From positions 45,752,326 through 45,816,325 of the forward strand of contig OY987264.1 in assembly GCA_963920665.1 (NCBI GenBank): DNA of 64,000 nt, read 5' to 3'. Below are positions 17,951 through 40,000 of the stretch, one piece after another. The notes beneath the pieces are model-generated. The model was not told the origin of the DNA and did no database searches. It saw only the letters and a list, made by a program, of their open reading frames with translations. Positions within the stretch are counted from its first letter, which is position 1. Each line of letters starts with the position of its first letter. This stretch comes from Straminergon stramineum. Lineage: Eukaryota > Streptophyta > Bryopsida > Hypnales > Calliergonaceae. Made by a program: the position numbers and the translations under genes.

Positions 17951-18284
17951 CTATCTTAAAGTCACGCCAATCCCTAAACCAACGTAGCAGAAGATGTGAG
18001 CCATCTCCAATACTAATGAAGTTAGACTTAATTAACACAATATTCATTATTTTGGGAGGTTTAGACTCTCTCAAAATAATGTTATCCATTTAGATGCTAA
18101 AAACTAAGATTTCGTTTTAGCCAATTTAGTTGACAAATGTTAAGTTTATTAATTCGAAAGTAGAATTTCCATTAAAATGAGAGTTTTTAGGGTTAATAAG
18201 CCCCGCATTACATTTTGTTCATTGTGAGAAGAAAACTCCGATTCATATAAGTGAAGTTCATGTCCTAGACTAAACACCAAGTCA

Positions 18285-18480: not shown

Positions 18481-18826
18481 AAAAGGTGGGTATACCCACT
18501 ATCCTTTTGGTCGAAATGGATGTACATTTTCAAATGACATGTGTATAACAATAATTATCTAAACAACTTCATTGAATAATATAGAATATCAAACACCATA
18601 AGACAATACATAGAATAATACTATATGTACTTGTAATTGTTCTATACACACATAATATATTTTGGCTAACATATATGCAATACCAAACAATAATATAAAA
18701 TCAATCAAGTGAACCCTATTTCATGTACTATAAAATTTAAATTCCAATTACTACACAAATAATGACGATGTGCTACTACATTATTACAAAATGTGTAGTA
18801 CATATACACAACCATATCTTTGGTTA

Positions 18827-21676
18827 TCAAGTGTACGATGCGAGAATCTGGTTGATGACTTCAATTTGAACAGTCGGAATCTTGATTAAGCAATGGATGG
18901 TGTCCTTCCTTATAGTAGAACTCCATGCTGTCATTAGAGCGTTTGTGTGCTCCCAAACCGGCGGCTCAATTTCATCGACCTTCCAACGCAAACCTCTATC
19001 GTTGCCCCATCCAGTGTAGTTGTCTTGAACTTCCTTACTTCTTGATGTTGGACGGAAATATTGAATGAGGATGCAATTCGGTTTCTCTGGATTACTATTA
19101 GGATCTGACAATGCCCTTGCAATCCAAACAGGTCAATTGTCACCATCCGTGGGGCGAACTGCAACAAAGTACCCATTGTACAAATCACGCCCCACCCTAA
19201 ACGATGGTTCTGGACGACTAGATCGAGGCCCAACGTATGCTTCATCCTCTGCAAACTCTTCACGGTCCTCGCCATCATCCCCTAATTGTTCCACTCGTGT
19301 TCGTTGAACACGTGTTTTGGGCCAAAAACCGTCTCGCAAAACTGTAGAGCTTGGTAACGGTTCTTGCATTGCTACCCTCACATCACGCCAATAGTGAACC
19401 AAATGCTCATACCGCCTTCGGTATTCTCCAGTAACATCTGCATTACACAAGTTCTCCCAGTACTTCTCAAATCCAGATATACCTTTCACAATGTCATTGG
19501 CGCCTTTCATTTCCATAGGTTGTACTGGCATGGGTACTCCATGGGGCCACTGACTTTGCCCTTCATCATCTTCTTTCCACAACTTAATGGGCCTACCATT
19601 TTTCCCTTTCCAATCTACATCAGTGCACTTCAACTTGTACTTCATGACTGGAATTCCATCTGAATCTAGGTAGAACTTCACTTGTTGTAGCTTTGTGTGC
19701 CCAATTAGAATATCGTCACCATCAATAAATGAACCAGTAATGAACCCCTTGAAATCGGGCACCTCTTCAATTAGATGTAGGATAGTAGGAATGGATTCTA
19801 CATCCATGAACGACTTCATGAGCGCAAGGACAGTCGGAAAACTCTCCTTCTTCAGAAGCATACTCCATCTCCCAAACAAAGCATCTATGTCGTCATGAGT
19901 ATGACCAACAATCATGAAACTCACATACACTTCACGAAAGATCTTGTTCGCGACTAGTAGAGACCAAAAACAATATACATATCTATTTTTGTTGTCCCCG
20001 TTGGCATTGTCCATTTGCATGTTCAGAATAGGCGGTAATGGTGTTGCTAGAAGTAAAGGTTCTGGTGGCGGGGGTAGTGATGCTAGACACATTTCCTTAT
20101 CCTTGAGCACTGCTCTAAACAAAGATGTCGCCCCTACATTTTCAAACAACTTCCTAGAAGATGACGTCGGTGCTTCTTCAAGGTCTCGCAACAACTTTGC
20201 CATTGACCCAATGGTGTAATTTGAATCATGCTTAAAGAGATCCAAACCATAATGTGCATAGCGGACATCAGCATGACCATGCGCAATCATGCCAGTGACG
20301 AACACAGGCAACTTCGTTAAACCATCAAGGTCCTTACTTTTATGGGAAAAGATTGGAGAAGCTGTTTTTGCATGATCCATCTTGTTGTGCATGATTGTAA
20401 GACATTCATGTGGAGATGTTTGAGACCAATATCGGTTCGCATAATAGAGCTCCCTATGCGCGCGAGCCTTGGCAAGGTGTTTGTCCAGTCTCGTCGACCA
20501 CAACAGAGCACTTTCAGACCCAGAAAGAGCACCCTTCACGAGCTCACATAATTTGTCACAAACAGCGCATCGAGCAAAGTTGTCTCCGGGTTGCTTCACA
20601 TCATACTGAAGGAACTTAGTAGACATGATCTTACTCAAGTTCAATGTTGAAAACTCCTTCAGTCCGAAAGCCACATTCACTTCGTTGATTTTTGCCATCT
20701 GACCCTTCCACTGAAATGTAGTCGGCAGAATTTTTGACACGATTTTTTCTCCTAATTTCAGCGTGTGGGATTTATGTGGCATGTGATCCGCTTCCTTTTC
20801 TAAGATGCACTTCAAAGTTATAGACGCTTGTTCCGTATGTTGCCTTGGCTTCAACATTCCCAAATTACCATGGTCCCTGGCTTCCCGACCATCCTTCATG
20901 GCGTATTTTTTGTAGCGGTAGAATGTAGACTTTGGAACCCCAGCAATATGCATCCAAGCTCGCATGCACACATCTATCCCATCTATCGTGACCACCCTTC
21001 TCCCTCGTGAATCACGATGCATCTACCTATGTACTTCAGTCTTGAGATACGCTCTATGCTTGAACGTAAAATTTTGGTACATGTGAAGGCGGAAAGCTCG
21101 AAATCCTCGAATCTTCTCTCTTGGAAACGGCTAGACGTAGTTTTTACTACAACAAACTTTACTCGACACCATATTGATGGACTCTTGACTGAGGAGGTCT
21201 TTCATTTTGATCCATGTCTCGCGCGGCAGCTTTCGAATAGTACTTGAATATGGTCGGCTACTCTTCGATGACGGTGGATTTGCACAAATCGCTTGGAGAT
21301 GGTTGTAATTATCCTTGATTGCATGGTCATGCAGACTTGCCCCACGATAGTGCACAAGCTTAATATCCCAAGCTACTAAAGCACATACCCGCTCTTAGGG
21401 GATGTCTTCTTCAGAATGAGTCTTCGAGATGTGTACTGCCACATGAGTGTCCCCAAGGGAACCATCAGCACTGAGGACTAGATCCGAGTTCACACTATGG
21501 CAAATGCCTTCACCAACAAGAGTTCCCGCATTGTTGTATAGAGTAACAACACTTGTATTCCAATATCGTCTTGGAAATCCTTTGCACTTTGGAATGTCAA
21601 CCTCCATTTCGTCTTGCCCTTGCACTTCATCATCAGACCAGACAATACTGTTGAAGGGGACATCTTCAGAACTCAT
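18827..21676 (-). pseudogene. DUF7869-type putative transposase, indel-free with four nonsense codons
   Basis: One continuous 950-codon frame from ATG 21676 to the stop at 18827, interrupted by TAA at 21395, TAG at 21131, TAG at about 21023 and TGA at 19133. Numbering from 21022, residues 1-40 include VCMRAWMHIAGVPKSTFYRY, a helix-turn-helix-like region typical of the N-terminal side of this family. A CAVC..C pair lies near 152-158. The DUF7869 core has MDHAKT at 216-221, MDNANGDNKN at 337-346 and GHTHDDID at 373-380, a spaced D...DN...H.D pattern resembling an RNase-H-like nuclease. After the TGA the frame continues with PVWIARAL and a WKVDEIEPPVWE tail. I believe DUF7869 is transposon-associated; that it is the transposase is inference. 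A palindrome-bearing tandem repeat lies upstream (21860-22750). Confidence 0.78.
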
Positions 21677-21859
21677 TTTACCTATACTTGTACATACAAA
21701 TAATGTGGTACCGAGTTATACATGAATGTTCTCAAATGAAACAAACAGAATAAGGTATTCAAATTGATTGTAATAGGTAGAGTCAACCTAAATAGGAAAC
21801 ATTGAAAAGTACATAAAAAGGTCTACAAACAAAAGTCTCCAAGTTATATTCAGATCTCT

Positions 21860-22750
21860 TAAGCTAGACAAATGGATTAATCTGGTTAGATCGACTCGAC
21901 CTAATCTGTAGAACGTACGAATCAATACCCAGACAATAAAAATAGTAGATCATTGAAACTTTTTAAAAGTATTTTCAACCCATATTCATTAATAACATGA
22001 TTGACACATCTATGATTTATCCGGAATGTGTCAATTTAGAAATGGTTTTGTTCATTGGTTGAAAGCGACGTGTAGTTTAGGTCATCTCGACCTACAAGTG
22101 CACAATCAGTTTCTGAGGACTCCATCTTTCATGGACATGAAGATTATCGTTATTTGCAATTACCAACAATTCAACGACATCAATTAAATCGATAAAGCAG
22201 GTTAGGTTGACTCGACCTAATCTGTAAAATTACGAAATCAATACCCAGACAAAAAACAAAGTAGATCATTGTTAATTTTAAAAACAATATTCATTAATAA
22301 CATGATTGACACATTTGTGATTTATCAAGAATGTTTCAATTTTAAAATGGTTTTGTTCTTCGGTTAAAAGCGATAGGAACTTTAGGTCGGCTCGACCTAA
22401 AAGTGCAAACGAAGTTTCTGAGGACTTTGACTTTGATGGACATCCAGATTCTTGTTTTGCAATTAAATCAATTAAGTCCATAGAGCAGGTTAGGTCGACT
22501 CAACCTAATCTGCAGAGCGTTCATATGGAAATCTGAATAATAAATAGAAAATAACAAATCTGTCAACATCAACTACTCTCATAGTTAAAGTAGCAATTAT
22601 AGTCTTCGTCCATTTCAGGTTGACTCGACGTGATCTGTATGCATGAATCGAACTGTTCTCATGTGGTCATTTAGGTCGACTCAACCTAAATATCCCGGAA
22701 TATCCGGAAGACTTAGTATTATTTCATTCTGTTCAAGTGTCCGCATTTCT
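21860..22750. repeat. About 300-bp tandem repeat carrying seven GTCGAC-centred palindromes
   Basis: About three direct units, each roughly 290-317 bp, share blocks such as ATCAATACCCAGACAA, TAACATGATTGACACAT and GTTTCTGAGGACT. Each unit has two palindromes: form a, GGTTAGGTCGACTCGACC then TAATCTG (21884, 22201, 22489, 22614), and form b, TTTAGGTCG.CTCGACCTAAA (22076, 22381, 22669). It begins about 200 bp upstream of the DUF7869 start. The same palindrome recurs at 32.2-38.8 kb in and around gene C. Possible roles are transposase-binding sub-terminal repeats or promoter operators. Confidence 0.85.
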
Positions 22751-23755
22751 CGGCGGTTTTATTAGAGCTATGGAAAACTAAGCTACTCAGTCCAACTTCA
22801 AACCCGAAAACTACAACACTGATACAGAAGGTCCAGCAGTCATCGATTCAATGCAAAACAACATCAACATACAACACAACGAAACAGCAGACGAACAATT
22901 CATTGTGATAGATTATTCACGTCGAGAAATGAAAACCTGGAATCAATTAACTGAAAACCTCAATGCAGACTACAAAAGTGTTTATAGAACCTTACTCAAA
23001 ACGCTCAACTCTACCTTCATGCAGCTGTTTACACCTACAATCCGCAGGGAATGCAGCAAGCAACCTTCAGAAAATGGAACCAAATTGAATCGAAAGGAAG
23101 AAACAGCACGCGGAGGAGAAAACAGAAATCGAAAATGAGAGAAAGAATACCCTAACCCAGACATGCATGGAAGTGGACGACTTCTTGGCGGGAAAAAAGA
23201 AGCGGCAAGTGAAGAAATGAAGTTCGAATTCTTCAATGGCTAGCTGTTAATATCGATTGTTTACAATAAAATCCACTGCATTGTTCACTTTTTTATTTAT
23301 AAAAAGGCATGGACAGCTATTTTCTATTTAAAAATCTATTACCCTCTTTCCGGTCAACAGTATTGTAGAGATTCATTTTCTATTTCAGAGAAAGTCCTTT
23401 AGTTTTGTCATTTCCACAAAGTCCCTCTCATTAATATGATCAGTGGGACCTTCTTATTACTTTAGGCAACAATATTTTGGGACATACACAATGCTAATTT
23501 TAAGGCAGCATGGACTACACATGGTACTTAAAGTAGAGGAGTGTATTATGAATTTTTGTCATTACCCGGGGAAAAAAAACATTTTCGTCTCATGTATATA
23601 TTCTATTCCTCTTACCATTACAGTAGGAACTCCAAATCTTTTTTAAACTAGAAATATGTTGGGACCACAACTCCATGGAATCCAACTCTACTTTTTCACT
23701 ATTACATGTACCTTTTACAGTTTGAGTTTGAGTTTTTTAGTAACAATTATAGATA
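22750..23755. other. Gene-free interval with a TATA-like motif
   Basis: ORFs at 22851-23138 (plus) and 22982-23236 (minus) overlap and show no domain. TTATAAAAAGG near 23296 on the plus strand resembles a TATA box, but no convincing gene follows. Confidence 0.4.
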
Positions 23756-23759
23756 CAAT

Positions 23760-23860
23760 TCAAGGGTTTAGGGTTGGTTTAGGGTTTAGGGTTTAGGGTG
23801 GTTTAGGGTTTTAGGGTTTAGGGTTTAAGGCTTTTAAGGGTTTAGGGGTGCAGGGTTCAG
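23760..23860. repeat. Interstitial plant-type telomere-like repeat
   Basis: Degenerate head-to-tail TTTAGGG units (agggtttagggtttagggt and variants with GGTTTAGGG and TTTTAGGG), about ten units. This is the Arabidopsis-type telomere motif in an internal position. Confidence 0.85.
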
Positions 23861-24970
23861 GTTTCGTGGATTTTTAGGTCATGAATGGACATTTTTGTCT
23901 TACAACTCTTGAGTCAAATTTTATGATGTGGATGATTAGATTTTGTTTTAGTGTAGGGAAGTCCTTTTCATATAAATTTGAAAACTGAATATGCAAATTC
24001 TAAACGATCCTTATTCCTTTCATTGGAAAAAATTAGAACCTAAAAAAATATAGTAGGGCCTTCACTTTGGAATTGTTTTTTTTTTAATATGAAGTATTCG
24101 AATTTGTATCTTTAGGTTATCATAGAATAGTAACACGTACATGTTCTAAAAGCATAAAGAGTACTTTACAGAGTTTTAGAACATGTTAAGAGCTATATTC
24201 TTGTTTTCAAAGTATATTATGAAGATTCCTAAGAAGTGAAAGATGACTACACATACACTCTCATTATAGAGGCTATACTTACAGGAAACATATATTTTTT
24301 GCAAACAGGTATTAGACAAGAAAAAAATTTATGAATTACTAATAATTAAATCACAAATGAAGTGATTATTTTAAAGCTATTTGAAAATCTTGTACATATT
24401 TAAACCCTATTTCATGAAAGGCAAATGAACATGAAATTCATGTGTTCAGCAATTGCATTCTTCGTATTGTTTCTCTATGCACAATGTAAAATGGTGGAAA
24501 AAATAGAATGTAAGTACTATTTATAATTAACGAACACAACTTATAGAAATGTATAATTTCAAGTAGAAAGTGTGAAAGGAAGTGACCCAAGGCGTTAAAA
24601 ATATTGACAGTTCTTTACTAAAAGAAAAAATGTTTCAAAGGACAAGACATAGAATTCATAGGAAAATCTATAGGAAATATGTAATCTACATTTTCAAAAT
24701 ATAGGAATTTCTACAAAGTTATAGGAACATTGATGTTGTATTATATATGTTTAAAAAATTACAATAGAATCCTACACAAAGATGAAGTATAAGCATAGGC
24801 ACTTAAAAAAATGTAGCTTGGACATTGAAAAGTTTTTTAGGGACTAGACATTCATGCACACATTCAAATAATGAAGTTCAATTGTAAGTTCAAAATACTA
24901 GAATGAGTGAACAATGGTGTATTTGTTGCAGCACAGGATAAGTAAATTCCCTATTATGCTCACAAAAATC
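23861..24970. other. Gene-free AT-rich interval
   Basis: Homopolymer-rich AT sequence without a supported coding region or array. Confidence 0.6.
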
Positions 24971-24974
24971 ACTC

Positions 24975-25065
24975 TAGAGCATAACAAAGTGACTCTAAAG
25001 ATCGAACCCACGAGATTCTGTGAAGTATTTACTTGAGTTGGGCGAGTAAGCTCTCTCACCCTCTA
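24975..25065 (-). repeat. tRNA-like/SINE-like fragment at the 3' side of element D
   Basis: On the minus strand CTCGTGGGTTCGATC fits a pol III B box, with GAGAGCTTACTCGCCCAAC upstream of it. It marks the change from GC-richer element D to AT-rich flank. Could equally be a decayed tRNA or a primer-binding region; no matching long terminal repeat was found. Confidence 0.3.
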
Positions 25066-26099
25066 AAGCTTCCTTTCCGGTCCTAGATCTAAAACCGGAA
25101 ACAACCAACCACCAAGAGGATTAGGACCGGATTACTTCCTATCCAATTCTGTAATCCTCCGGTTAACCCAATTCTTCCAATCTCCAAGACCTAAACAATT
25201 CCAGTCCTGGTACTGCTCTGAACCAATCCGCTCTGGCTGGTTCCTATACCTCCTCAACTCTCTTCCGGTTTAGTTTTGCCTCTGTAGGACCATCGGAGGG
25301 TTCGCCGCTTAGGTTTCTGAGTGGTAGACCCACCACTCCTTCTGCGGATTGTAGTGGTTGAAGACCCACTATTCTCTCCCTTCCTCTTCTAACTAACTCG
25401 AATCCGGTTTGATCCCTCACAACACTCCTCACAGCAATCCGGAATGCAGGTCATACAGAGATCCCCCGTACAATCCGTTCTTACTAAAACGACCTCAATG
25501 CCAACTCCTATCCGTGTGATGCTAGGTGGTTACAAGTATACTCGTCCATTCCAACAGTAACTAGGATCATTCCATTTACCAACTAAGGTGGTGAGACCTC
25601 TCAGAAGATCGGACACTCAACCGGACTACCCGTCCAGGAGTTCTAGCACGACTAAGGATACCCTCCCTATTCGCCTAGCCTAACAGCGGCTATCTCACCC
25701 GGAACTTCAAAACCCTAGATCTTGCTGAGGCACTGAAATACACTCCCAACACTTACACAACCTGTACACACACTAAGGATCGGAAACTATCGCACTAAGG
25801 GGAGAAATCTAATCACAAATCTGTCTTACGCCTTCCTAACTCCGCATCATGCAAACTTGCTAAGCTTGGGAGACACACACAACAACAGAGCGCATACAAA
25901 GGTACAACAGAAATTGCAAAAAGAAGACTCCCAGCGTCCCTCGCGGGCGCTGACTATATACATTTCAAAAAGTTACAAATGGGCGGGAAAACTCGTGAAA
26001 GTTCCGCCGCCATCTCGGTCAGACTTTTCAGTCCTACCTACTCTCAACTCGATCGGAACAGTTTCCGTATCCATTCCTATTCTACCTACTCTGTACATC
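25065..26099. other. Non-coding 3' part of element D
   Basis: Moderately GC-rich sequence with many CCGG/ATCCGG words, distinct in composition from the AT-rich flanks and similar to the 5' region at 27.8-28.25 kb. Short ORFs here have no domain. Probably untranslated body of the element encoding the 26100-27770 ORF. Confidence 0.45.
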
Positions 26100-27770
26100 C
26101 TAAGCCTCTATTCGCGATCCGATGGTCGCGCTGTCCGCTCCCGGGTCCATCTGCTCGAAAACATCGTTTAGGTTCCGACTCCTCTCTACCTCTTGAGGTC
26201 GAGGAACCGGATTGCCTTCTGTGGACGCGGGTGGTGAGTCCAAGTCGATGGCGGTTCTAGACGTGCCGGCCTGGGTCGTTCTCTTGGACTTGGAGGTCGT
26301 ATCCTTCCCCTCTCTTGCTGCCACTTCCGGGAATGAATCCGGGAGAGAGATATTCAAGAGTCGAATACCGCGAGAGCAAGTTGCTCCCGACAGTATCCGG
26401 GTACTCTCCTCCATTCGGTCCACTGTCTTCCGTGCCTCCTTCATTGCCGCTTCTACCTGCTCAACAAAGTCGTTGAGAATCCTCACCATCTGGGAACCGG
26501 ATAGCTTCTTCTCCTCATGCACCCGCTCGTCAAAAAACTTTGCTTTGGTGAGGGCCGTTCTGGTTTCCCCGAACGTGGCCTTCACTTGCTCCATCATTTG
26601 CGGAGCATCCTCTGCAATAGACTTGGTGGTTGCGAAGTTCTCCTTGTGCACCAGGATCTCCATCTTCATCTGATCCACCTCCTCTTGTAGCCGGCGGATC
26701 TCTACTTCGTGCTTTCGGGCCTCAATCGGATCAGAGATACAACCCACCACCTTTTCCGGTAACTCTCTGTCGGGTGTTGCTCCCACCATCTTCCCGATTG
26801 CTACCAAGATCTTCCCCTTCAACTCCCAATCCACTCGTATGTCGCATAAGGTTTTTACGGGCCCTTTGAATGGATCCTTAGGATCCGATTCTTCTGACAC
26901 CGTCTTCTCGACCTTTGGCTTCTCCTCTGGGGCCGGGGTGTCCCGAGTGGGTGGCGTCCCCCGCTTGTTGGGAGAGGTCGTCTTCTGCCGTTTGATGGGC
27001 GGCATTGGCGCCTCCTCTTCCTCTGATTCACTGTTCTCCTCGGGATCGGAACCGGATTCCATCTCCTCATCTGTTTCCGATTCTCTATATTTCAGGAGAG
27101 TTTCCTGAGCCTTCCACCTCTTCTCCTCTGGTGCGCTCAGGAGCTGGTGAGAATGATAGAGGTGCATGAGATAGGGGCACACCGGAGTGGCCCTACTCTT
27201 CCCCACTCTTCCTACGAGTTGGGTCACCAGCTTGGAAATGATCTGAGCCCAGTCAACTTTCCGGTCTCCTCTCAGAGCGCTGAAAATAGTGTTGGCGAGG
27301 GAGATAGTCACCCTCGTCGGTTTTTCGAGATGAAGGACCGGAACTAAGAAATTTAGTAGCCAGCGCTGCCGCTCATCGATGCAGTCATCCACCGCGTATC
27401 CGTCTTTCGGGTTGACCGCTCCCCCGAACTTTCCGCGGCAGAACTCATTCTTCCGGCTTGCCATTCCTAGCCCTCCTGGGCGGAAACTATAGACTGCTCT
27501 CCACATGTTTTCCGTCTACAGATGTGGAACGGCTCTGAGAGTGTTGTCAAACTCATTGGACAGCTTGCCCAAGAGTTCTCTGACTATGGACTCTTCTTTG
27601 AAGCCCCAGGGTCTCTCCACAAACCCTAGGCAACCCATGGAGTTTAAATCTTCCATGAGTTGGGACTTGGTTGGTTCAGTGGAGGGAACAATCGGAACTA
27701 CCTTTCGGAGCTTCACCTCCGTTGGTGGTACACTGGCCTGTCCGCCTCTACTCCTCCTAAGCTACGACAT
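26100..27770 (-). CDS. Transposon-type ORF D ('putative plant transposon protein'-like), two in-frame TAG codons
   Basis: The frame is continuous for 557 codons from ATG 27770 to the stop at 26100, broken only by TAG near 27762 and TAG at 27516, so it is likely a pseudogene. The conserved N-terminal half has TKSQLMEDLNSMGCLGFVER, VNPKDGYAVDDCID, LEKPTRVTISLANTIFSALR and RKVDWAQI, then CPYLMHLYH. An acidic Glu/Ser region, a KRQK basic cluster and a long C-terminal coiled coil (about 26700-26400) follow. The order of features resembles plant transposon proteins with a helical N-terminal domain; this assignment rests on recall of the family and no search was possible. No zinc knuckle, protease or polymerase is present, so a gag-like or accessory role in a non-autonomous element is an inference. 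A TATA box lies 260 bp upstream. Confidence 0.6.
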
Positions 27771-28030
27771 GGACACGGGTGAGTGTGCTCGGGACCCTTT
27801 CCGATACTCCCTCACTCTCTCTCCTAGCCGCACGTCCCGTTCTCGCTTTCGCTCCCCGAGCTCAACCGGTAATTAAAGCTCGAACGCTCAAAGACCACAA
27901 GTCTCGCAACGGACACTGGCACAAAAGACTATCACGGGAAACTAAGCGACAAGCGCAGATGCAAACGCAAAGCACAGATAGCGCTGGGCAAACGAAAATG
28001 AGAAAGAGTTTGATCTAGGTAGCTCTAGCT

Positions 28031-28040
28031 CTTTTATAGC
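28031..28040 (-). promoter_or_regulatory. TATA box for ORF D
   Basis: GCTATAAAAG on the minus strand, about 260 bp upstream of the ORF D ATG, in a GC-richer segment (27.85-28.25 kb). A canonical plant core promoter motif; transcription start not visible. Confidence 0.55.
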
Positions 28041-28259
28041 CGTTGGACTCCCTGCCACCTCATCCTGACTCGTTCCGGATCCGGTTCGTCTAAGGTATCC
28101 GGCCCATCCCTGTCCGGTCAGACATCCGCTCCTATTCGTTCACTCCTTGGAAACTGGATTGAGTAGATCTTTCCACTATCTCATTTTCCGCTTCATATTC
28201 AGATCTAAATGGTTCCTTAGCTAATTCTGGATACATATAATTATTTTCCGGTTAGCTTG

Positions 28260-30985
28260 ACTAGGTAAACCAAAAAAATCAAAAATTGCACGTTGTGATA
28301 GTATTCTAATATTTGTAGTGAAGGTACAATAATTTGAAATGAAGCAAAGTAAATAACCAAAAAATTGTGTGAACAAATTTTGCTAAACATTAAGTTATTT
28401 CACATTTTCATAATGCTAAATAATTAAATAGTATCATGAATTGAGATGCACATAGAAGATTAGGCTTCAAAACATTCCAGAATTAGTAGAATTGGGAAAT
28501 GCTTGTTTACATACAACAAAACTAAAATTTGTTGTACTCACTAACACCCTATTCTTCATACTCTCAGATATGTAAGTGGTTGCATGAGTAACATGTGAAT
28601 CATGTTTTTAGAAGCACTATGGCTTTATATTATTGTTTGTTATAGCAAATATGTTAGCAAGACTAGATTCTATATTTACAAAACAATTGCATGTACATAT
28701 AGAAGGTTACATATGTCTAAGATAACATAAAATGAATCATTGCACTGCACTATTGCATTCATTCCATTAGAATCCAATCGTTCATGGCTTTAGGTGCCAC
28801 ATATGTAGTTATGATGATTTATTGGAAGGACCATTTTGTATTGAGTGCAATATTAGGAAGAAGTAAATGACCAATTGAAATACTTCAAATTTTTTTGTCT
28901 ACAATTTAGATTTTCTTTAGTTTTCCCTTCGAAAATGTGCCAGTCTACATCTTTCTTCTTACTTCATTCCTATAATATCTACAAAATTCCTATTTCTAAA
29001 TTTGTGCTTATTGTAAAAATTTACCTTACATTTATCATTGTAGCGAGAGTGGACCCTTTCATAGAAAAAGAACTAAGCTCGTAATTCTTCTATTCATTTG
29101 AATGAAATAAAAATTATTTATTCCAAGGAAGTAATTATGTTGTAACTAGTAAGCTCTCATACTACCTTCAATATGGTCTATAGTGAACTTCGTATATTTT
29201 ATGGTGGGTAAGATAAAGGCTACTATAAATCTATGCTGATTCCGTACTTTCCCACTTCAAAATTCCATGATGAATTCCATTATGAAAGAAAATGAAACTA
29301 GTAACTATGAGATAGCTTGAAACGTTTTGTACATTGTGTGGAGCAACATGTTCCCCTATTTTTTACAAGTGCTCTACATTTATGATTTCATCAATCTTAG
29401 TACTCAATTTCAAAGTGCTCTCATTCATGCATACAATAAAGCTATAATTGCAAAGCAATGAAGAGTTCCAATTACAAAATTTAGAAAGCAACTTCCTCAA
29501 TGGTTAGTACTATCAAAATAAAAGAAAGTGAAATGTACTTATTTTGTAATTCCTATAAAGAACTTATATGCATGACTTGAATAGTAACACTACACATGCC
29601 CTACACCAAAGTGCATGCAACCTTCATTGGTAAGCATTTTCCAAGATTACGTAGTACGGTGGAAACGTGACGTAAGGGTTTCTTTTATTCACTAAATTGA
29701 CGTAATTGCCTACCTTTTAAATATATTTCCCATAATTCTTATTTCAATATGTTCCCGTGTCTACGAAAAATTATAAAGAATTATAATGCATTTGAAGATT
29801 GCTTATTATTTAAAGTAAATTTCATACCCACACCCTTTCAATTACACAAAAAATATAGAAGATTGAAATTAGGTGACGTCACCTTCATATCTTGTACATT
29901 TGAATCGTATACAATTTTTTACTATTACTACTATATAGAAATTTATTAATTTAGTACTTGGTATAGTTATTATTGTCTACTCTTGAAACTTCCTATTTAC
30001 AAATGCACCTATATGTACATTGGAAGTTCCTCTTCACTTTAGTATATGTAAAGTAACTTTCCAAGGGATAATGCCCCCTACCTCTATACCTGTAAACGTT
30101 GTGTTCGACGTGTATTGGTTCATAAATGACAAATAATTTGTCTATGTAGTAGGAAACTACAACTATTAATTCCTAGAATTTTGTATAGAAAGGAGAGACA
30201 TCCTAATATGTTTTAACCTCTATAGTAAAGCTTTATTTTTTTTTGAATGAGGTAATGTCATATGGTTTTGAAAAGGTTGATTTCCACGATCGACACTTTC
30301 TTCTTTAAATGTTAAGCCAACCGAATTTTAGTATGGTAGATGGTGGTAATTCTGTGCATGTTCTAACAATTGCCCTATAGGTAGAACAAAAAGTGTTCTT
30401 CTGACATTGTGGAAACTGTGCCTTTGATGATGTCCTTCATACATGAACATGATTTGAAATGGTGTAGAGCACTTTTGGAGTTGAGAATGGTGAAATTTTC
30501 AACCATACCTGGAGAATTTATAAATGCAATCGTAGAGTTAATGAGGCTCTTATAAAATTTTCATTTGAGGTTTAGGAGTTGTCTGAGCCTGATCAACAAA
30601 CCTTCAGAACTAATTTTATAATCTAATTTGTGAAAGTTGGCATGTGTGTCAAGTTTTGTATCCTCCTAGGAGCATATATGAACCAAAGGGAGGCCCCCTA
30701 AAATTAAGGCACTCACATTTGGTAGGTCTCATTGCACCATTTAAGGACAAATGCTTTACTTTTATTGATGTCTTTTAAGAATATAAATAGCACCCTATGG
30801 CAATTCTGTTTAAAAAATCATATTTAATTGAACAAACTAGCAAAAATTATGAAAAAAATTGCTTCTCAAATCATTTTCTCTTTTAGTACTCTTTAAAATT
30901 CATCTAAATTGTAAAGACCACAATTTTGGATTGTGGAAGCAAAGACGCTCTTAAATGAGCAGTTTCTGTACCATCTACCTCATTG
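28260..30985. other. Gene-free AT-rich interval
   Basis: About 2.7 kb of AT-rich sequence. ORFs at 28875-29084 and 29749-29949 are short and low-complexity. No array, transposon domain or RNA gene was recognised. Confidence 0.6.
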
Positions 30986-31004
30986 AATGTACATATGTCC
31001 TATT

Positions 31005-31185
31005 TAGTATGGGGTGGGTATGTTTTCATGGGTATGGAAGCACGAGTACATTCTTCATGGGTAAAGGGGCAGCGGGTATATGGGGCGGGTATGTAGGTGG
31101 GTATGTAGAGGGCGGTTATGGATTGGGCGGGTATGTAGAGGGCTGGTATGGGTTGGGCGGGTATGGGCTGGGCGGGTACAGGTAG
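31005..31185 (+). repeat. G-rich GGGCGGGTATG minisatellite
   Basis: Degenerate units around GGGCGGGTATG with spacers TAGAGGGC and GGTTGGGC; about twelve GGGTA words. G runs are close enough for G-quadruplex potential. Peptides predicted across it are repeat artefacts. Confidence 0.8.
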
Positions 31186-31229
31186 TTTGGCATGGCCATT
31201 AGGGTTTGGGGCTCCTGTCGTCCCACTCC

Positions 31230-31530
31230 TGCTCTTGGAAACCTTCGTGCTCCTCATCACACTTGTGCTTCCCCCTCGTCGTGTTGTGCTCCCCCTTTGT
31301 CTTCGCTCCTGCTCCTCTCTCTTGTCTCTTGCTCCCCCCTCGTCGCTCCTGCTCTCTCTTCTCCCCTTGTCGTTGTTGTTCCCCCCTCGCCACGCTGCTG
31401 TTGCTCCTTGTCGCTGTTGCTCCCCCCTCGCCACGTTGCTCCTGTTGCTCCTATTGCTCCTCGTCGCGCTCCTGCTCCTGCTCCTCGTGTTGTGCTCCTT
31501 GATCCTCCTCTCCTCGTGTTGTACTCTTGC
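31230..31530 (+). repeat. Pyrimidine-rich CTCCTGCTC triplet-like tract
   Basis: Imperfect repetition of CTCCTGCTCC, TTGCTCCCCCCTCGTCGC and GTTGCTCC. Open frames on both strands (Leu/Ser-rich, and Arg/Ser/Gly-rich on minus) are compositional and not supported as genes. Confidence 0.7.
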
Positions 31531-31539
31531 TATTGGTAT

Positions 31540-32215
31540 TGCTGTTGGTGTCGCTGCACGGTCTCTACGAATTGCACAGGTTTGTTTTGTCACTCCTTTT
31601 GCTTTGAATGTCATTCAAATTTGTAGTAATGCTTTAGTAAGTTTTTTTGTTAGTATTTGTGGCATTTGTATCTGTATGTTTGGGGTTTAGGTTGAGGGTT
31701 TAGGGATTCTGAAGTCCACTTTCATAGTTTAGTTGTTTTGGGTTGTCCTTTGAAGTTATGTACTTTGCATCATGGTGTTTTGGATTATGGAGGTCTGAAT
31801 GTGTATGAATGTTTGCTTGAATGTGATAACGAAATGCTTGAATGCAATGACATACGTTCAAAGTACCATTGCATTTGGTGTAGGGTTTTGGCAGTTCCTT
31901 GTACTAGAGTAGATTCAAGAATGCATAGCAGCCTTATAGAATTGCATTGTGCTATACAATGTTCGTTTGAATTTAGTGTAAAATGAGATTGCAATGCACT
32001 GAGTGAGAGAGTGTGTTTTTAAAACATAGCGATCTGATTTCGCCTTCAATTCTCCACAATTTGACATCCACTATCCTAAACCTGCAGGACTATTTTAGTT
32101 GGAAGTGGATTATTCAAGAACAAATTTTTTTTCCACAAATTTACCAGTAGATTCACTCACATTTTGCTTGCAGTGAACTAGATTGACCTTCACCAGCCGA
32201 GGTAATCTTTTCACC
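31540..32215. other. Gene-free interval before gene C
   Basis: A short ORF at 31738-31986 shows no domain. GTTTAGGTTGAGGG near 31684 is a half-site-like match to the palindrome motif. Confidence 0.45.
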
Positions 32216-32217
32216 AA

Positions 32218-32888
32218 TGCGTTTTAGGTTGATGTCACTTTAGGTCAATTATTCTTGTAGAGGCTTTGGAAATTCATTCGTGTAATTTAATCACACAGAT
32301 GTGAAAACAGGGCATCGTTTTAGGTCGGGTAGACCTAAAATGCCACACATCTCCCCGGTCGTGATGATACACAATCCACCTATCATACATAAAAAAGAAG
32401 GCTGAGCACCAGAACACCCTCAATCATGTTGAAAGGAGAACAATTCAGGTCAAGTCGACCTAAAATGACACAAATGCACTTGCTCCATCACGGTAATATT
32501 TTCAAATATGAAATACTATCGAAACGACTAAATAACAATTATCCCAAATTAGATGTAAACATTTAACAACTCAAGTCGAATCGACCTAAAATGTCCTCAT
32601 GAAGAATCTCATAACGTAAATATCCGTAACTAACATAGATGCGTAATACCAAATAGGTTGTTCAAATATATTGAGATTTGTAACGTATTCTAAAAAGTAA
32701 AGTAACTTCTTACAAAATAACTATAACAGATATAAAAACCGATGAGGTCAAGTCGACCTAACCAGTACGAAACGAAAATGCACAGAACTAAAATCCTGAA
32801 TATAATAAGGGACATCAATAACAATGTCCCGAAATTCTATGATATCCTAACTAAGTTAATACGATTTAGGTCGAGTCGACCTAAACCA
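32218..32888. repeat. Cluster of GTCGAC-centred palindromes upstream of gene C
   Basis: Five good copies of TTAGGTCGAGTCGACCTAA or close variants at 32318-32340, 32443-32466, 32568-32592, 32744-32763 and 32864-32886, plus a degenerate copy at 32221. Spacing is about 100-180 bp. The last copy lies 40 bp before the gene C ATG. Flanking sequence differs from copy to copy, so here the palindrome itself is the repeated unit. Confidence 0.85.
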
Positions 32889-34363
32889 ACGTAAAGCTAA
32901 TACGATATTTACAATTGAAAGTAGAATGGAAGAGCAGGTTCAGAAGCTTGAAGCCTTCTACAAGTGACTTGATATCACGCGGGACGAGGAAGATGGGGAC
33001 GATTTCGAAAACGATGGAGATTACTAGGAATTCCAAGCACTAGAGAAGATGGAGAAATGGAGCCTGAAGATGATTCCCTTCAAAAATCTCATTTGCTTTT
33101 CTGCAAAGTATAAGGATAGTGAACCATATTATCCAATCTCCTATGACGAAAAGATCAAAGACATCGCCCAAGATGTCGGATCAATAATCAAGATCCATTG
33201 TGTCACTACGCAAATGCGGTTGAAGGACAAGGAGCAGTACCACTTCACAATTGTGCTTGACTCAGCAAAAATCGATTTCAATATAACCCCATTTCTGGAA
33301 TCTCTCCAGCCAACAGAGTATAGAACCGAAATTCCAGAATTTGGAAAAAAAGGTCAATTCAAACTTTTTCAGGAATGTCGCCGGGAAGCTGTTTAGTGGA
33401 AAACAATTGTGCAATCAATTGCAGACACTTTTCGTTGACTTTGCAATATTGACAGCAAAGCTTGACCTCAAACGTAAGGAAATGGTCTCTCGCTCAGTAT
33501 CGCACGACCTGCCAAGCCAGGGAGAGGGCTAGGGATCTATGGGAACTCCAGGGACGCAACAAAGTCATGGTACGCGGAGAAGTAAACAAGCCGCAACCCC
33601 TCCCACGGGAACAAGGAAGAGCAACCTGGCTCTCTCCTCGGAGAGACGAGGGGGAGAAGGTGCTCCTTCAATTTTAATTGCTCGAGAGCAAAGTTTCGCG
33701 CCTACTGTTACAGACGTGCTAGAGGCACATGACCCCAAGCGCAAGCATGACTACAAACAGTCAATAGAGACCTACAAGAATTATTGGACCTCTTGTACAG
33801 ATGCTTACATTTTTGAGATAAATGAAAAGAAGTCGATCTCTATAGACCAACTCATTCCCGCACCACCGAAAATGAACATTTGTAGTCACGAGCAAAGGCT
33901 AGCAGCAGATGTGTTGAACTATTTAGTGCACATGCCAGATAAATACACAAAGCAAACATTGTGTGTCATGCCGGTTGCCCAGACTGTGAAGCTGGGACCT
34001 ACATCTTGGGACACCATCAAGAAGGGAGAGTTTTACCTCATCAATGGTCAACATAGTGTAACCGCTAGCAAGATGATGGTGGACATGAACCTAGATGAGG
34101 AGATCGTGAAGCACTTCCGGAACTGGGATTGCAACGTCATCTAGTCAAATGACAATGAGAAGTTGAGGTCCATCTCCGCATACTACAATAGAGTAAATCA
34201 TTTTATTGCGATGAAGCCGTCTTGGTCGACAAACATCCTAGGCGCGAGAACTGTGTGGGAGAACATGGGGAGGCCTAGAAATCCCAAGGAAGCTGTACTT
34301 GTTGGCACTTTCTCCAATGCCAGACGTAATGCAGAGAACATGGCCAATTCCTTGAGATTCAAG

Positions 34364-34467
34364 GTCAGTGATTACTTTCTTGTAATATGGGGACTGTAAA
34401 TGCATTTTAGATCGAGTCGACCTAAGTTGGCTTTGGACTTATGAGACCTAATTTGCACTGTGTACAG
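34364..34467 (+). other. Intron 1 of gene C, containing a palindrome
   Basis: Donor AAG|GTCAGTG and acceptor TGTACAG|GAG, 104 nt, phase 0 on both sides. TTTTAGATCGAGTCGACCTA at about 34405-34425 is a copy of the palindrome found upstream of the gene. Confidence 0.7.
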
Positions 34468-35819
34468 GAGTTTACAAAGGCCATGAACAAGCGTTTCTCT
34501 ATGCTTGACGTTGTGAAGTCTCAGAAAGCCACTCGTGGGAAGGGTGGTGAGGAGAAGCTGAAAATCACGAATGAATTGAAGATTATCACTACTCCCGACG
34601 ATGTTTTCAATTTGTGGAGTGAGGTCATTTCTAGTGCTACACATGGAGAGCTCATAGATCCGGACACGATGCTAAAATTAATGAAAGGCTGAGCTGGAAG
34701 TTTGAAAACGGAAATTTGACGCATGAATTTTTCAAGTGGCTCGGAAATCTCTCGCTAGCTGATCTTGCGAAACTTGCGAAGCACATTCTTAATCAGCAGA
34801 CGGGAAAGCGAGATTAGCCATATCCAAAGGTGACGATAAAAATAATATCGTCTGTGCTCGAGAGTTGCTATACTTGCAAGGAGTGGGTTGAGCGGTGGAA
34901 AAGGAAGTATTTGGTGAAGAAGGAGCTTCACCTTTTGGACCCGACACTTGGTTTGTGGAATGCCTTTGACGAGCTGAACGTTGAGAAGTGGCGAGAGTTC
35001 AAGTCTAATCGGAACATCACTAGCGCTACAATGAATGTGCTACTTGAGCAACCTGGCAATGACTATTGGAAGGAGGCCAAGCAAACGAAGTCGAAGAATA
35101 AGAAGGCCAAGGAAATGTCACCCTATGTTGCTGAATTCTTCAAAGTGTTTCTGGAGAGGAGGTCGAACTTTGTGAAGCCACTCTCCGTTGCTCATTGTCG
35201 TCCATACGATATCAGCAATGACATGCATGCTGACTGGCCAAGAGGTGCATGGAACGAGAATACAGTGGAAGATGTAAGATTCAGAGTGATTGACTTTAGA
35301 TACACTCCTGGCGTCCTCAACAAGCTGAAGTGCAATCCAACTATGCCGTACTTCTTCACCGTTCTTAAGTTGTTTCAGGAGAAGAAGAAGCCATTGTTGG
35401 AGGAGATCGGGACATGGCTCTTCATCTGCTCGGATTTAACCGAGCAAAATCAAGCTCTACATTACGTGCAGAGCAATGAGGTGCTCAGAGAGTATCAAAT
35501 GGACTACTCTGACTATTGGCCAGCACGGCATGAGAGGATGGGAGATTACTCCCCAAATAACAGTAAGGCTGTGGAGAAAGTTTATCTTACCTTCCTGCAG
35601 AGTCCTAACAACGTTGTTCTCATGATCCCAAAACCTGCTTACAAAGCACCGAATATTGACGTGTTCAATAAGCCAAGGGCCTATAATGAGCTATGTTATA
35701 GAATTAATAATACGGAGCTATGGATGGAATTCTACCTTGGAATTCTCAAAAGGTTTTGTTTTACGAGGAGGAGTGTCATGTCCTTGTTTGCTGGTGCCAA
35801 GTTCACATGCGTAGCAATG

Positions 35820-36056
35820 GTATGTTGTTTTAGGTCGAGTCGACCTTAATTTGCATTTGCAATTTTGTGTTGGAGCACTCAAACATGCTAATTTCATTAC
35901 TATCTAAAAAAGAAGGCTCTGATACTGTTATTCTCATTGGTAATGAACATCAGAATTTGCCAATGACATTCAATTATGGTTACCTGTTTAGGTCGAGTCG
36001 ACCTAAGATGTGCTTACTGAACCAAATCCTATTGTTTCCCTTTGTGTGATTTTCAG
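35820..36056 (+). other. Intron 2 of gene C, containing two palindromes
   Basis: Donor ATG|GTATGT and acceptor TTTTCAG, 237 nt. Palindromes at 35828-35849 and 35987-36006. The downstream frame has a TGA within 15 codons, followed by a frame change to MWTDIVEM. Confidence 0.65.
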
Positions 36057-37039
36057 ATGAGCGGCCTTAATGTCTACACTGTAAGGAGTCTCCGATGAAT
36101 CAACAATGTGGACTGACATTGTGGAAATGGCCAAGTCACTAGACATTAAGGACTTCGAGCCAAATGGGTACTTTGTCGATGAATCCAGATTCAGTCGGAA
36201 ACCTGTAGGTGCGTCAACACCTACATCAAGCAGGAGAAAGGGAAAGTCGGTGTGTGACCGATCCTACACGCCTTCAAGTCGGGGTGGTGGATCGCAACGC
36301 GAGAGTATGGATTTATCCTCCAACACAGAGGCCGATGACGATGACCTGGATGCAGACGACATGCAAGAGGAGCAATGTACGCCACCAGCGCGGCTATCAC
36401 AAAGCCTTCGAGGGTCGTGTGCTTCGTCGGGGCCCCCTGTGGAGAGGCAACCAACTAGCACCCCGCCTCCAACCACAGGCGAGAAAAAAAGGAAAAGAGC
36501 CACCTATCACGATGTGGATCTTCAGGCTGAGATAGCGCAGCTCAGAGCAGACAGAGTGAAGGATCGAGCTGATTCTTTGGAATTGTATGCGGAAACAAAT
36601 AAAGGAATGGACATGTTCGAGAACTTTATCATAGCGGCAACAAAATGTCAAGATGACCAGTTTTCCGCCATTCAAAATCAGCTTGCAGGGATCAAGCTAC
36701 AGGCTTCATTGCCACCATCGCATGAATCTGGCCAGTTGATGATCCGGGGTCCCCTCACAGGTTCTATCAACAGTGGGGAATCCAATCTTGCTCATCCCAG
36801 TGCTATTCCTCTCGGTTCCACTCCGACCTCTTTTGTTGTCCTAGCTCCTCCTCCTCCAAAGGATGATCAGCCCGCAACTCCAGCTCTACCATCAGAGCCT
36901 AAGGTTGAAGAGACGCAGGTGGATGCAACGCCCCTAACGGCCACACCTGCTAAAGGTGCGGATGTTCTTGGTTTCAGAGAAGGCTTGGCTGCGGACCTTG
37001 ATCAGAATGAGCTCTCACCCAGCACCAATGCACCAGCAG

Positions 37040-37313
37040 GTTGTAATTTATAATCACTCGATGTCAAGTATATAGTTAGGTCGACTCGAGCTGATTTGTA
37101 ATATAGATTTTTTTGTAGCCGAAGACGTTTAGGAGCGAAGGGGCCTTCCATTTTGACACAGGACTTATAGTGGAAAGAATTATCGTCATGAATTCTTCAT
37201 TTTGAACATCAATTTCTGAACATCAATTTTGTATTTTAAATTCCAATGCGATTGAATGGAAGTATGTTCTCGATATCTTACAAATTGCCTCTCTATATAT
37301 TCCTTTGTTGCAG
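37040..37313 (+). other. Intron 3 of gene C, containing a palindrome
   Basis: Donor GCAG|GTTGTAA and acceptor TTGTTGCAG, 274 nt, phase 1 on both sides, joining STNAPA to GLVNVFKMPS. GTTAGGTCGACTCGAGCTGA at 37075-37095 is a diverged palindrome copy. Confidence 0.6.
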
Positions 37314-37769
37314 GCCTTGTCAATGTGTTCAAAATGCCTTCATCCTCTGTTGCCCCAACCCTTCACTCGCCTCCTCCATCGTCACCTTTTCTCATTTCCT
37401 TGGAGACGAATTTATCTCCAACGCCAAGTGTAGTGACATCGCAACCGGGGGATAAGACCGCAACAAGACCGTGTCCAAGAGATGATGACACCTCCATTCC
37501 CGATGACGTGCTCATGGAGGTTAAGATTCATGATCCAATCACTGTGGCGCTGGGAGATCTGTCAGAGCCGGAAGCGTCCTCTCGATAGTAGGTACATTGT
37601 GCTGCCTTCGATATTCTTAGTTATAGATTCCATTCAGCGTTAGGGGTGTTCCTTTCTTCTATCATTGATTTTTTATCCTTCATTGTGGGTTGCCATTTCG
37701 TTCCGCGTGAAGTCCAAAACTCGTCCCGTCGGGTAGTAATTGGCTACGAATGTGGCCATTTGTTAGCAG

Positions 37770-38567
37770 GGATCGGATCCTCCATGTCGTCGTGGAGAAT
37801 TGTTGAATGAAGTCAACATTCCATTGAGGTCCAGGGTGACCGAGAAATGGCTCAACGTCATCTTGGACCTGAATGGATTATTATGTGTCTGTGAGGATGC
37901 TAAAGTGAAGGGTTGGGCGAGGCACGTCGATGACGTGTCGCAGCCCCACTCCGCCACGATTCCTACGGTTGTGGGGCCGAAGGCTGTGTACGTCCAGTCG
38001 GGGTGCGCACAATTCTTGCCTGACTTAGGCCAAGTAGCTTTCGTTTCCGTGTGGAGCTCAATGAAGAAGTCCACCACCGAAGAAGTCTGTGCGTATCTCT
38101 TCCGCGATCTGGGAATGCCCTTCCTCGTACTAGGACAGGATTCCTACACGAAGCTCAAGTGCAAGGATGGTTCAGGTCAAGTCACCACGTTCAAAGAGCC
38201 AGGGATGAGCAAGGAACTTTTCCTGAAAAACCTTGATACATTGTTCAATGGCTCTTATGGGAATTTCACGCCTGAGAACACCATTGTAGTGGACGACAGT
38301 CTCGTTAAGCATATCATGAACAACGCAAAGAACGTCGTACTCCTGGACACTTGGAGTCACAAGGGGAATGGTCCGAAGGACTCATTCCTTTTGGACGTTC
38401 TTCTTCCTTGGTTTAGGCGTGTGCACGATGCTAGAGATCAAGGGCTAAAATCGTTCAGGGGGAATAGTAAGGGGAAAATGGGGCGGAAAATGCTCTGCGA
38501 CGAATGGAGTCGTCAAGAGTATAATAGGATTATGGAAGTGGTCAAAGTGTCCTTGACTTTGAAATAG
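37770..38567 (+). CDS. FCP1/NIF-like HAD phosphatase domain, exon-like
   Basis: An uninterrupted frame of about 265 codons. Motif I is VILDLNGLL: the first catalytic Asp is kept and the second is Asn, a variant seen in plant FCP1-like proteins. SVWSS fits motif II and TIVVDDS the acidic motif, followed by NNAKNVVLLDTW. FCP1-family HAD enzymes dephosphorylate phosphoproteins such as the RNA polymerase II C-terminal domain; loss of the second Asp raises doubt about activity. The frame extends upstream without ATG to an acceptor-like TTAGCAG ending at 37769 and could join exon 4 of gene C across a 178-nt GTACAT...CAG intron, giving a GQH-FCP1 fusion. In that case the tandem TAG codons just before the donor would be nonsense changes. 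A separate gene with a non-ATG or missing first exon is the alternative. This is the most intact part of the locus. Confidence 0.72.
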   Translation, partial: GSDPPCRRGELLNEVNIPLRSRVTEKWLNVILDLNGLLCVCEDAKVKGWARHVDDVSQPHSATIPTVVGPKAVYVQSGCAQFLPDLGQVAFVSVWSSMKKSTTEEVCAYLFRDLGMPFLVLGQDSYTKLKCKDGSGQVTTFKEPGMSKELFLKNLDTLFNGSYGNFTPENTIVVDDSLVKHIMNNAKNVVLLDTWSHKGNGPKDSFLLDVLLPWFRRVHDARDQGLKSFRGNSKGKMGRKMLCDEWSRQEYNRIMEVVKVSLTLK

Positions 38568-38641
38568 GATACTTCTGTTTCCATAGATCAAGTCCATTTG
38601 AGCTACTAGGAGGTCAGATCGGGACATTTCATTCTTTGCGC

Positions 38642-38790
38642 AATTTAGGTCAGATTGACCTTATTTGTATATAGTCATTAAGCACATTCGTTTCAAGTTT
38701 GTCCAATCCAATTTTTGTAATAAATGTTGATTTGATGTTTGTCAATGGGAGACTCAATGTTGTCATTCAAGTTAATTCGACTTGATGTGT
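38642..38790. repeat. Two diverged palindromes downstream of the FCP1 domain
   Basis: AATTTAGGTCAGATTGACCT (38642-38666) and TTCAAGTTAATTCGACTTGA (38766-38787) are degenerate copies of the palindrome at 32.2-37.1 kb. They suggest that the element or regulatory domain extends past the phosphatase exon. Confidence 0.55.
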
Positions 38791-38957
38791 TTGTCTATGT
38801 TTATTGGATAAGTGCACTGCATGCTACTTGTTTGTATTACTAGTTGTGAATCCCTTTGGACTTCTTACATGGAGAAACTCTAAGCACCGCTTGATAGCAG
38901 AGTTTCGACAATGCGCCGCCTCCATTCCCAAATGCCAGACTTCCATGTGCGACATCA

Positions 38958-39560
38958 ATGGACTCCATCCTGGACTACGGCCAGAACGCTATTCTCAGCA
39001 CAGGGAACTTCCTCTGCTCGGCGGCCATTGCCAATTCGACAATGGACTTCTCAATCGGGCCCATAGAAGATGGGGTCATGGACAGTCCGCCTAATGGAGC
39101 TCCCCGACTGCCGAAATCATGCTCACCTTCTCCTTTGAAATTCAGAGATCCTATGGCTTCTAGAATGTCGCCATCTGCCTTGGACAGAATGCCACAAAGA
39201 AAATTGTATGAAGACGTGGGAATTCCGAATTCCACAATCGAGACGAAGAATCCCCTACCAATAGAACCTTGCAAACAAGTTCCCCTTGTACAATCTCATG
39301 GGCCTCCTATTCCTCGTCCACGAGCACAATGTCTAGGTGTACGAAAGACCAAGATGCACGATGGAGTGCCACCCAATAGATATGCTGCACCGGTTTTCGA
39401 CGCTTGGGATTGAAAGATCTTACGACTCCAACGGCTTCAAGGGCTAAGGGAATATAAGAAGAATGATAACAGATATAGTCGTGGACCCGAAATTATGAAG
39501 GCCATGGAACTGCTAAAGAGTAAATCGGACATAGAGATGTTGTTTCTATTTTTGATATAG
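38958..39560 (+). pseudogene. Unrecognised Pro/Ser-rich ORF with one TGA
   Basis: From ATG 38958 the frame runs 152 codons to a TGA at about 39412 and continues in the same frame (KILRLQRLQGLREYKKND) to the TAG at 39558. The protein is Pro/Ser-rich with a basic C-terminus and no domain I recognise. It follows the FCP1 exon and the downstream palindromes on the same strand, so it could be a last exon of the same locus or an independent remnant. TGA may derive from TGG or CGA by one transition. Confidence 0.4.
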
Positions 39561-39564
39561 AGTC

Positions 39565-40000
39565 TATACATACATGTAAACATTGTGCAGATATGCAGTT
39601 ACTTACAACTCAATGATGGGGTGAATCATACTCATGGCAGTTATAGGCATTGTCACAATCCTTTTGTGAATAAGAACTCAAAATCCATATAGGAGTTCTA
39701 TATGACAATCAAATGTGATTATACATACAAGAGTTTCAAAAAATAGAATCACCTTCTGCCACGTTCTTCAGTACTCTTCCATGAGATTAGAGGGGTCTTG
39801 CGTGAATTTGTGTGTCAAAACTAGTGCTCCATACCTCTCATTTCATTGGAAATCTCTCATTTTAATGAATATTGTATTAATTGCGTCTTCCATGGACTAC
39901 AACTGACCTGTCCTTCAACGTTAGTAGCTAGTTAATACTACAAAATTAGTCTATAAATATAGAATTATAGTAAGACTAATTAGACAAATTGAAGAGGGTT
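39565..40000. other. Gene-free interval
   Basis: AT-rich; a 63-codon ORF at 39715-39906 has no domain. Confidence 0.5.

Follow-up and report, generated by a model that had tools for sequence, protein, structure and literature searches.

We find that a family of 21-bp palindromes in the moss Straminergon stramineum occupies conserved non-coding places in three related transposable elements: before both genes, in introns 1-3 of one of them, and after that same gene. One of the elements lies in a 64-kb stretch of contig OY987264.1 (the window, by which we mean the whole stretch of DNA analyzed), where it carries a putative transposase gene of family DUF7869 and a second gene that we call gene C. 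On balance, we favor the reading that the palindromes are bound by a sequence-specific dimer that the transposon itself encodes, most likely the product of gene C, and that this protein would serve anti-silencing or self-activation.

The earlier note on this DNA had claimed a palindrome cluster around these two loci and none like it elsewhere in the window, and both observations hold. A search of the window for the short pattern GGTCGANTCGACC, with at most 2 mismatches, gave 17 matches against 1.04 expected (100 shuffles, largest 6), all confined to 21776-37091. A scan with the longer consensus TTTAGGTCGANTCGACCTAAA (20 letters scored, cut-off 13) placed eight palindromes upstream of DUF7869 (at least 15/20, span 21772-22690), five upstream of gene C (at least 16/20, span 32319-32885), four in three of the four gene C introns (at least 16/20), and two diverged ones downstream. 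The features are as follows, with strands given where one was assigned and with 2a and 2b denoting the sister subfamilies described below:

18790..21676 (end approximate), minus strand: DUF7869 transposase gene, intronless, ~960 codons, four in-frame stops (Pfam PF25273, E 1.7e-39)
21772, 21885, 22076, 22201, 22381, 22489, 22614, 22670: DUF7869 upstream array, eight palindromes (TTTAGGTCGANTCGACCTAAA scan)
21870-22512 (21870-22224 and 22186-22512): tandem duplication inside the DUF7869 array, 356 bp, 77% identity
32319, 32444, 32570, 32742, 32865: gene C upstream array, five palindromes (TTTAGGTCGANTCGACCTAAA scan)
32926..38567, plus strand: gene C, five exons (~32926-34363, 34468-35820, 36057-37039, 37315-37590, 37771-38567), from reading frames, relatives and predicted fold
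34406..34426: palindrome in gene C intron 1 (TTTAGGTCGANTCGACCTAAA scan); the 2a and 2b elements have an intron-1 site as well
35829..35849: first palindrome in gene C intron 2 (TTTAGGTCGANTCGACCTAAA scan); two intron-2 sites in the 2a and 2b elements too
35987..36007: second palindrome in gene C intron 2 (TTTAGGTCGANTCGACCTAAA scan)
37075..37095: palindrome in gene C intron 3; one site between the exon-3 and exon-4/5 frames in the 2a and 2b elements too
38644..38664: diverged palindrome 3' of gene C, 15/20 here and 16/20 in the second copy
38766..38786: second diverged palindrome 3' of gene C, 13/20 here and 15/20 in the second copy

The remaining TTTAGGTCGANTCGACCTAAA matches in the 64 kb score 13/20, with only 3-6 of 10 arm positions paired, and two of them (32223 and 32239) directly precede the gene C array. 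None of the 16 palindromes at 16/20 or better falls in the coding parts examined, which make up 29% of the stretch, and dinucleotide shuffles gave 0. The palindrome nearest to a start codon is ~40 bp away for gene C and ~95 bp for DUF7869. Several palindromes of the DUF7869 array are carried by the 356-bp tandem duplication, so the eight sites are not all independent. The flanks of the other palindromes show no mutual alignment past the size of the site. The claim that the arms are kept while the flanks differ is borne out apart from this duplication, and a longer common repeat as the source of all the sites is rejected, the flanks being unrelated. The claim that introns hold sites and exons do not stands for the four copies in three introns and for the coding parts examined, but gene C has a fourth intron (~37591-37770) that is free of sites.

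Comparison of copies shows that DUF7869 and gene C are parts of one DNA transposon, in line with the suggestion that the two loci form a single system. When the genome (326 Mb, 59 contigs) was searched, a second copy (L035, L036 and L037) aligned to the window from 18034 to ~39880 and, beyond that, to window 54.9-63.5 kb. The following limits were obtained:

18034..39878: the complete DNA transposon, a copy of subfamily 1, ~21.8 kb (alignment with the second copy, L035-L037)
18030..18033: left target-site duplication AATT, 4 bp (copy comparison)
39879..39882: right target-site duplication AATT, 4 bp (copy comparison)
18034..18048, plus strand: left terminal inverted repeat AACACAATATTCATT, 15 bp
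39864..39878, minus strand: right terminal inverted repeat AATGAATATTGTATT, 15 bp
24923-28301: nested 3.4-kb insertion within the transposon, absent from the second copy

Terminal hallmarks of cut-and-paste transposition are present: 15-bp inverted repeats, 4-bp target duplications in two copies (AATT in the window, CTTT on either side of the second copy), and an empty site for the second copy with a single CTTT. Right ends resembling AATGAATATTGTATT, with 2 mismatches, occur in the 2a and 2b elements that we read. The empty site of the second copy (C2, near 45.96-45.98 Mb) corresponds to window 59028-59031, within the repeat common to window 54.9-63.5 kb. Gene C is divergent from DUF7869 (minus strand), some 11 kb off, and both genes are broken in the window, gene C by in-frame stops and frameshifts; its exon borders were set by GT/AG and homology, without transcripts. 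Of the four in-frame stops in DUF7869, three occupy positions at which relatives have glutamine, fitting cytosine deamination.

Sister subfamilies repeat this layout with coordinately changed palindromes, which, as far as sequence tells, supports the protein-binding site proposed in the earlier note. From 27 DUF7869 matches at 72-77% protein identity we read eight, four of subfamily 2a and four of 2b. Their arrays stand at the matching place with the letters changed (2a palindrome TTTAGCTCGANTCGAGCTAAA, 2b palindrome TTCAGGTCGNNNCGACCTGAA), and the upstream 2 kb cannot be aligned between subfamilies, the coding start excepted. One 2a element and one 2b element were then read across gene C. In both, gene C is divergent from DUF7869 and a subfamily-specific array precedes its exon 1 (nine sites in 2a, seven in 2b). 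Introns 1 and 3 of both (intron 3 located by open frames) contain a single site each and intron 2 contains two, and a further site directly follows the last exon; the intron counts of the window element, 1, 2 and 1, are equal to these, and it has two diverged sites downstream. No site lies in the coding parts examined of any of the three elements (0/16, 0/22 and 0/19; DUF7869 start plus exons of gene C, making up 29-31% of each stretch). At palindrome letters 6/16, the window element has G/C at 14 of its 17 sites, the 2a element C/G at all 23 and the 2b element G/C at 12 of 19; at letters 3/19 the three have T/A in 11/17, T/A in 11/23 and C/G in 14/19, respectively. Both arms differ symmetrically between subfamilies (AGGTCGA versus AGCTCGA), and the 2a palindrome has 63 exact sites genome-wide (control 0). 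The 2b element (C3:23.002-23.020 Mb) retains one 2a-type palindrome, in gene C intron 3.

The DNA around these sites is largely not shared. Between subfamilies, the upstream DNA and introns 1-2 have at most 49 bp in common, mostly the palindromes themselves. Downstream DNA is still alignable piecewise (138 and 132 bp at 73%, with shorter bits, partly in the frame 38898-39413), and the 2a and 2b elements share 76 bp at 82% there. The frame at 38898-39413, 3' of gene C, is open in the window and is longer (636 bases) in the second copy. Such joint change of the arms, in whole arrays, at fixed places and in otherwise largely lost DNA, would be expected from a dimeric protein with shifting specificity, and the palindromes bear the signature of coevolving dimer-binding sites.

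Two other explanations bear on the same pattern. If the palindromes acted as RNA or DNA hairpins (small-RNA precursors, splicing or cruciform signals), the arms would be coupled by base pairing, and a symmetric difference in both arms would be expected as well. However, no single transcript spans the divergent upstream arrays, the introns, the downstream sites and the gene-less relatives described below; the loops would be tight, at 1-3 bases; and within a subfamily the letters are kept beyond mere pairing. We therefore regard hairpins as very unlikely. The earlier note had also raised a spreading micro-element, that is, a tiny self-spreading repeat entering non-coding DNA. Many copies with unrelated flanks and arrays with units of ~51, 91 and 113-125 bp would suit such a repeat, but the same introns hold the same number of sites in three subfamilies although the letters differ, and array growth comes partly from tandem duplication, which leaves this idea barely credible.

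Across the genome, the palindromes listed lie in or near the transposon family. The exact palindrome TTAGGTCGANTCGACCTAA has 220 sites, and its reversed control has 0. Among the 50 sites listed of these 220, 20 are within 25 kb of a DUF7869 match (from positions only), and for the other 30, where the surrounding DNA was read, all 30 are in the transposon family or in short relatives resembling miniature inverted-repeat transposable elements (MITEs). The uniform scatter that would have spoken against the earlier note's motif is not seen among the 50 listed sites. The MITE-like relatives hold 11 of the 50 listed sites. In the first four that were read, recognizable ends are present on both sides in three and on one side in one; the two best delimited are ~450 and ~600 bp long and have short terminal stretches in common with the full element. 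These two carry up to seven palindromes, 45-52 bp apart. The palindromes could instead be host transcription-factor sites captured to drive the transposon genes, for which the short distances to the start codons of gene C and DUF7869 would be fitting. All of the 50 listed sites are in, or (20) near, the transposon family, though, the letters depend on the subfamily, and sites are also found in introns and 3' of gene C, so that we think captured host sites quite improbable.

The palindromes of subfamily 1 evolve more slowly than the surrounding DNA. Of 996 candidates in a genome search for DUF7869, 70 were scored and yielded at least 71 matches, which makes copy numbers lower bounds. At 28 of 30 loci around DUF7869 (L005-L034) at least three palindromes lie upstream, with a single site in one and none in one. 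We aligned 23 of the 30 upstream regions, excluding seven in which the spacing differed, extra sites occurred or arrays were missing. In these 23 copies, identity to the consensus at non-CpG columns is 0.956 in palindromes, 0.902 between palindromes and 0.966 in the coding start; at CpG columns the corresponding values are 0.907, 0.750 and 0.862. When a template of the six sites was shifted over the non-coding part (855 positions), the observed mean was reached in 40 of 20000 random shifts, which is about what the true position and its neighbor yield alone. Two subfamily 1 loci, L024 and L034, have DUF7869 upstream arrays with other spacing, a sign of array turnover.

Which transposon protein would bind the palindromes can be considered from the two genes. 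The central part of gene C, which we call the GQH part, matches the ParB/sulfiredoxin (Srx) nucleotide-binding fold in its predicted structure. The remainder of the model, where a helix-turn-helix (HTH) and a C-terminal dimer domain would follow, has a predicted local distance difference test score (pLDDT) mostly below 50. Searches of Pfam and NCBIfam found no match of gene C to the ParB models PF02195/TIGR00180, and Pfam, NCBIfam and PDB sequence searches found no named domain in the GQH part. The last exon (37771-38567) is NIF/FCP1-like (Pfam PF03031, E 5.3e-10); Pfam did not find this domain in the gene C model of Ceratodon. Phosphatases of the NIF/FCP1 type usually carry a DxDx motif, and at its place the domain in the last exon reads DLNGLL. 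A 2a and a 2b copy of gene C share only 45% identity in exon 1.

The transposase matches only DUF7869 in Pfam. We found 254 relatives, and the 120 that were listed include proteins of Physcomitrium and Ceratodon with 48-74% identity in the aligned part. The word DUF7869 was not found in the literature searched, and so no named transposon superfamily can be tied to it. Its predicted structure weakly suggests two helices reading like an HTH and an RNase-H-like region; Argonaute, TnsB, Mos1 and integrase are among the fold matches, all at Z of 6.6 or less, and the top match is a MutY protein.

The main rival to gene C as the binder, since gene-less relatives keep the sites too, is transposition, with the DUF7869 transposase itself binding the palindromes as subterminal or internal sites. 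TnpA binds repeats in CACTA elements in a comparable way. The HTH-like helices and the RNase-H-like region would allow this, the MITE-like relatives are hardly more than ends plus palindromes, and the HTH-like stretch differs between subfamilies 1 and 2a. Yet the sites of the full element are not subterminal (3.7 kb separate the first from the left end and 1.1 kb the last from the right end), introns hold some of them, and a 2a and a 2b copy with different palindromes have the same HTH-like stretch VPEATFYRYQTY. We consider binding by the transposase unlikely on this evidence, and the DUF7869 protein, which the earlier note had suggested as the binder, seems less probable than gene C. We favor gene C because its exon 1 has diverged and its predicted fold is ParB-like, whereas the HTH-like stretch of DUF7869 is unchanged between the 2a and the 2b copy compared.

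In the mechanism that we propose, a gene C dimer would dock on each palindrome, perhaps loading and sliding like ParB-type clamps, and would keep the promoters and gene body of its own subfamily accessible. It may do so by countering host DNA methylation, or by activating transcription of gene C itself and of the transposase. Gene-less short relatives would retain arrays because their movement is aided by the same opening or by transposase recruitment, and changed site letters would hold each subfamily under its own factor. In a more specific form, this would be a nuclear eukaryotic transposon with a ParB/parS-like system, whose ParB-fold protein loads at promoter and intron palindromes, spreads as a nucleotide-gated clamp, shields the element from silencing and coevolves between subfamilies and moss species; we offer this version tentatively and with some doubt.

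We take anti-silencing or self-activation as the most likely role of gene C because the anatomy is the same in kind as that of VANC and VANDAL in Arabidopsis. VANDALs are Mutator-like, with the transposase of Mutator-like elements (MULEs) and a 9-bp target duplication; the moss element, with its DUF7869 match only and its 4-bp target duplication, is not a VANDAL. According to PMC5735166 and PMC10398659, VANC21 binds a 9-bp motif in introns, intergenic regions and terminal non-coding regions of VANDAL21 and removes methylation, while its relative VANC6 recognizes other motifs. As here, a transposon-encoded system is paired with a short repeated motif in non-coding regions, VANC binding being weak in coding regions, and the motif diverges between related families, as do the palindromes of the three moss subfamilies; VANC targets are often tandem repeats, a likeness to our arrays (PMC5735166, PMC10398659). 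The VANC6 motif is also found in AT9TSD1, an element unrelated to VANDAL (PMC5735166, PMC10398659). The VANDAL motifs are 8-9 bp long and the moss site is a longer palindrome (21 bp); the word stem "palindrom" is absent from the main text of PMC5735166. Anti-silencing is shown for VANDALs and proposed for the moss element.

Bacterial proteins offer a second comparison. VirB is ParB-related, uses parS-like palindromes upstream of promoters and counters silencing, also from more than 1 kb; it differs in that it acts on a bacterial plasmid against H-NS silencing and with a demonstrated cytidine triphosphate (CTP) switch, while the moss case is eukaryotic and its fold only predicted (PMC10770331). 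KorB of plasmid RK2 is a ParB-type clamp with a 16-bp operator located 4-10 bp or 45 to more than 1000 bp before promoters of one mobile element, but it represses, together with KorA (PMC11790492). In bacteria, archaea and phages, the ParB-CTPase fold is often associated with mobile elements, and sulfiredoxin is the commonest eukaryotic case named (PMC12704722). The word stem "transpos" and the words "plant" and "moss" are absent from the main text of that paper. A survey based on Pfam models would miss gene C, which has no Pfam ParB match, and our literature search for ParB together with mosses or transposons found nothing on the subject among the titles listed.

The VANC proteins of the Arabidopsis VANDALs are, to our knowledge, the only known case of sequence-specific anti-silencing by a transposon. 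A subfamily-specific motif in promoters and introns of an unrelated moss transposon would point to more than one origin of such self-protection. Should gene C be the binder, a ParB-like fold that in eukaryotes is mainly known from sulfiredoxin (PMC12704722) would enter transposon biology. With three subfamilies, different sites and one gene C each, the question of specificity is directly testable.

The two genes may also be linked beyond this genome. The nearest named proteins to both DUF7869 and gene C are from the mosses Physcomitrium and Ceratodon, and in Ceratodon the locus tags are neighboring (KC19_3G000200 for gene C, KC19_3G000300 for DUF7869). Three contigs of the same sizes (313,938; 312,168; 109,202) recur among the matches of both genes, a hint that the two may be linked. 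A 4.3-kb contig filed under a cyanobacterial metagenome-assembled genome, CADCWO010000071.1, presumably moss contamination, encodes a DUF7869 protein with 52% identity to that of Physcomitrium. Within 600 bp 5' of the start codon lie three palindromes, one of them a perfect 2a type, and two or three more lie past the matched coding stretch, with none inside; letters 6/16 are unmatched in three of the six sites. Ten more contigs with distant DUF7869 (23-45%), also filed under prokaryotes, held no palindrome. A viral source was considered and set aside, as no viral contig has the exact palindrome and none encodes a relative. Relatives of gene C that were predicted without splicing seem to run into intron 1, and 15 of their 26 tails can encode a palindrome (one of three motifs) with a better fit than 199 or more of 200 shuffles, while 11 cannot. 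Because codon choice was left free and one of the tails has 93% identity to the 2b copy, this result is no more than suggestive evidence for intron-1 palindromes in relatives.

Finally, we note two observations on the copies themselves. The nested insertion in the window element holds an open reading frame of 471 amino acids (26100-27515, minus strand). Contig C11 (17.4 Mb, ~5% of the genome) holds 28 of the at least 71 DUF7869 matches, two of them being pieces of one copy, and is perhaps a sex chromosome or a heterochromatin-rich chromosome.

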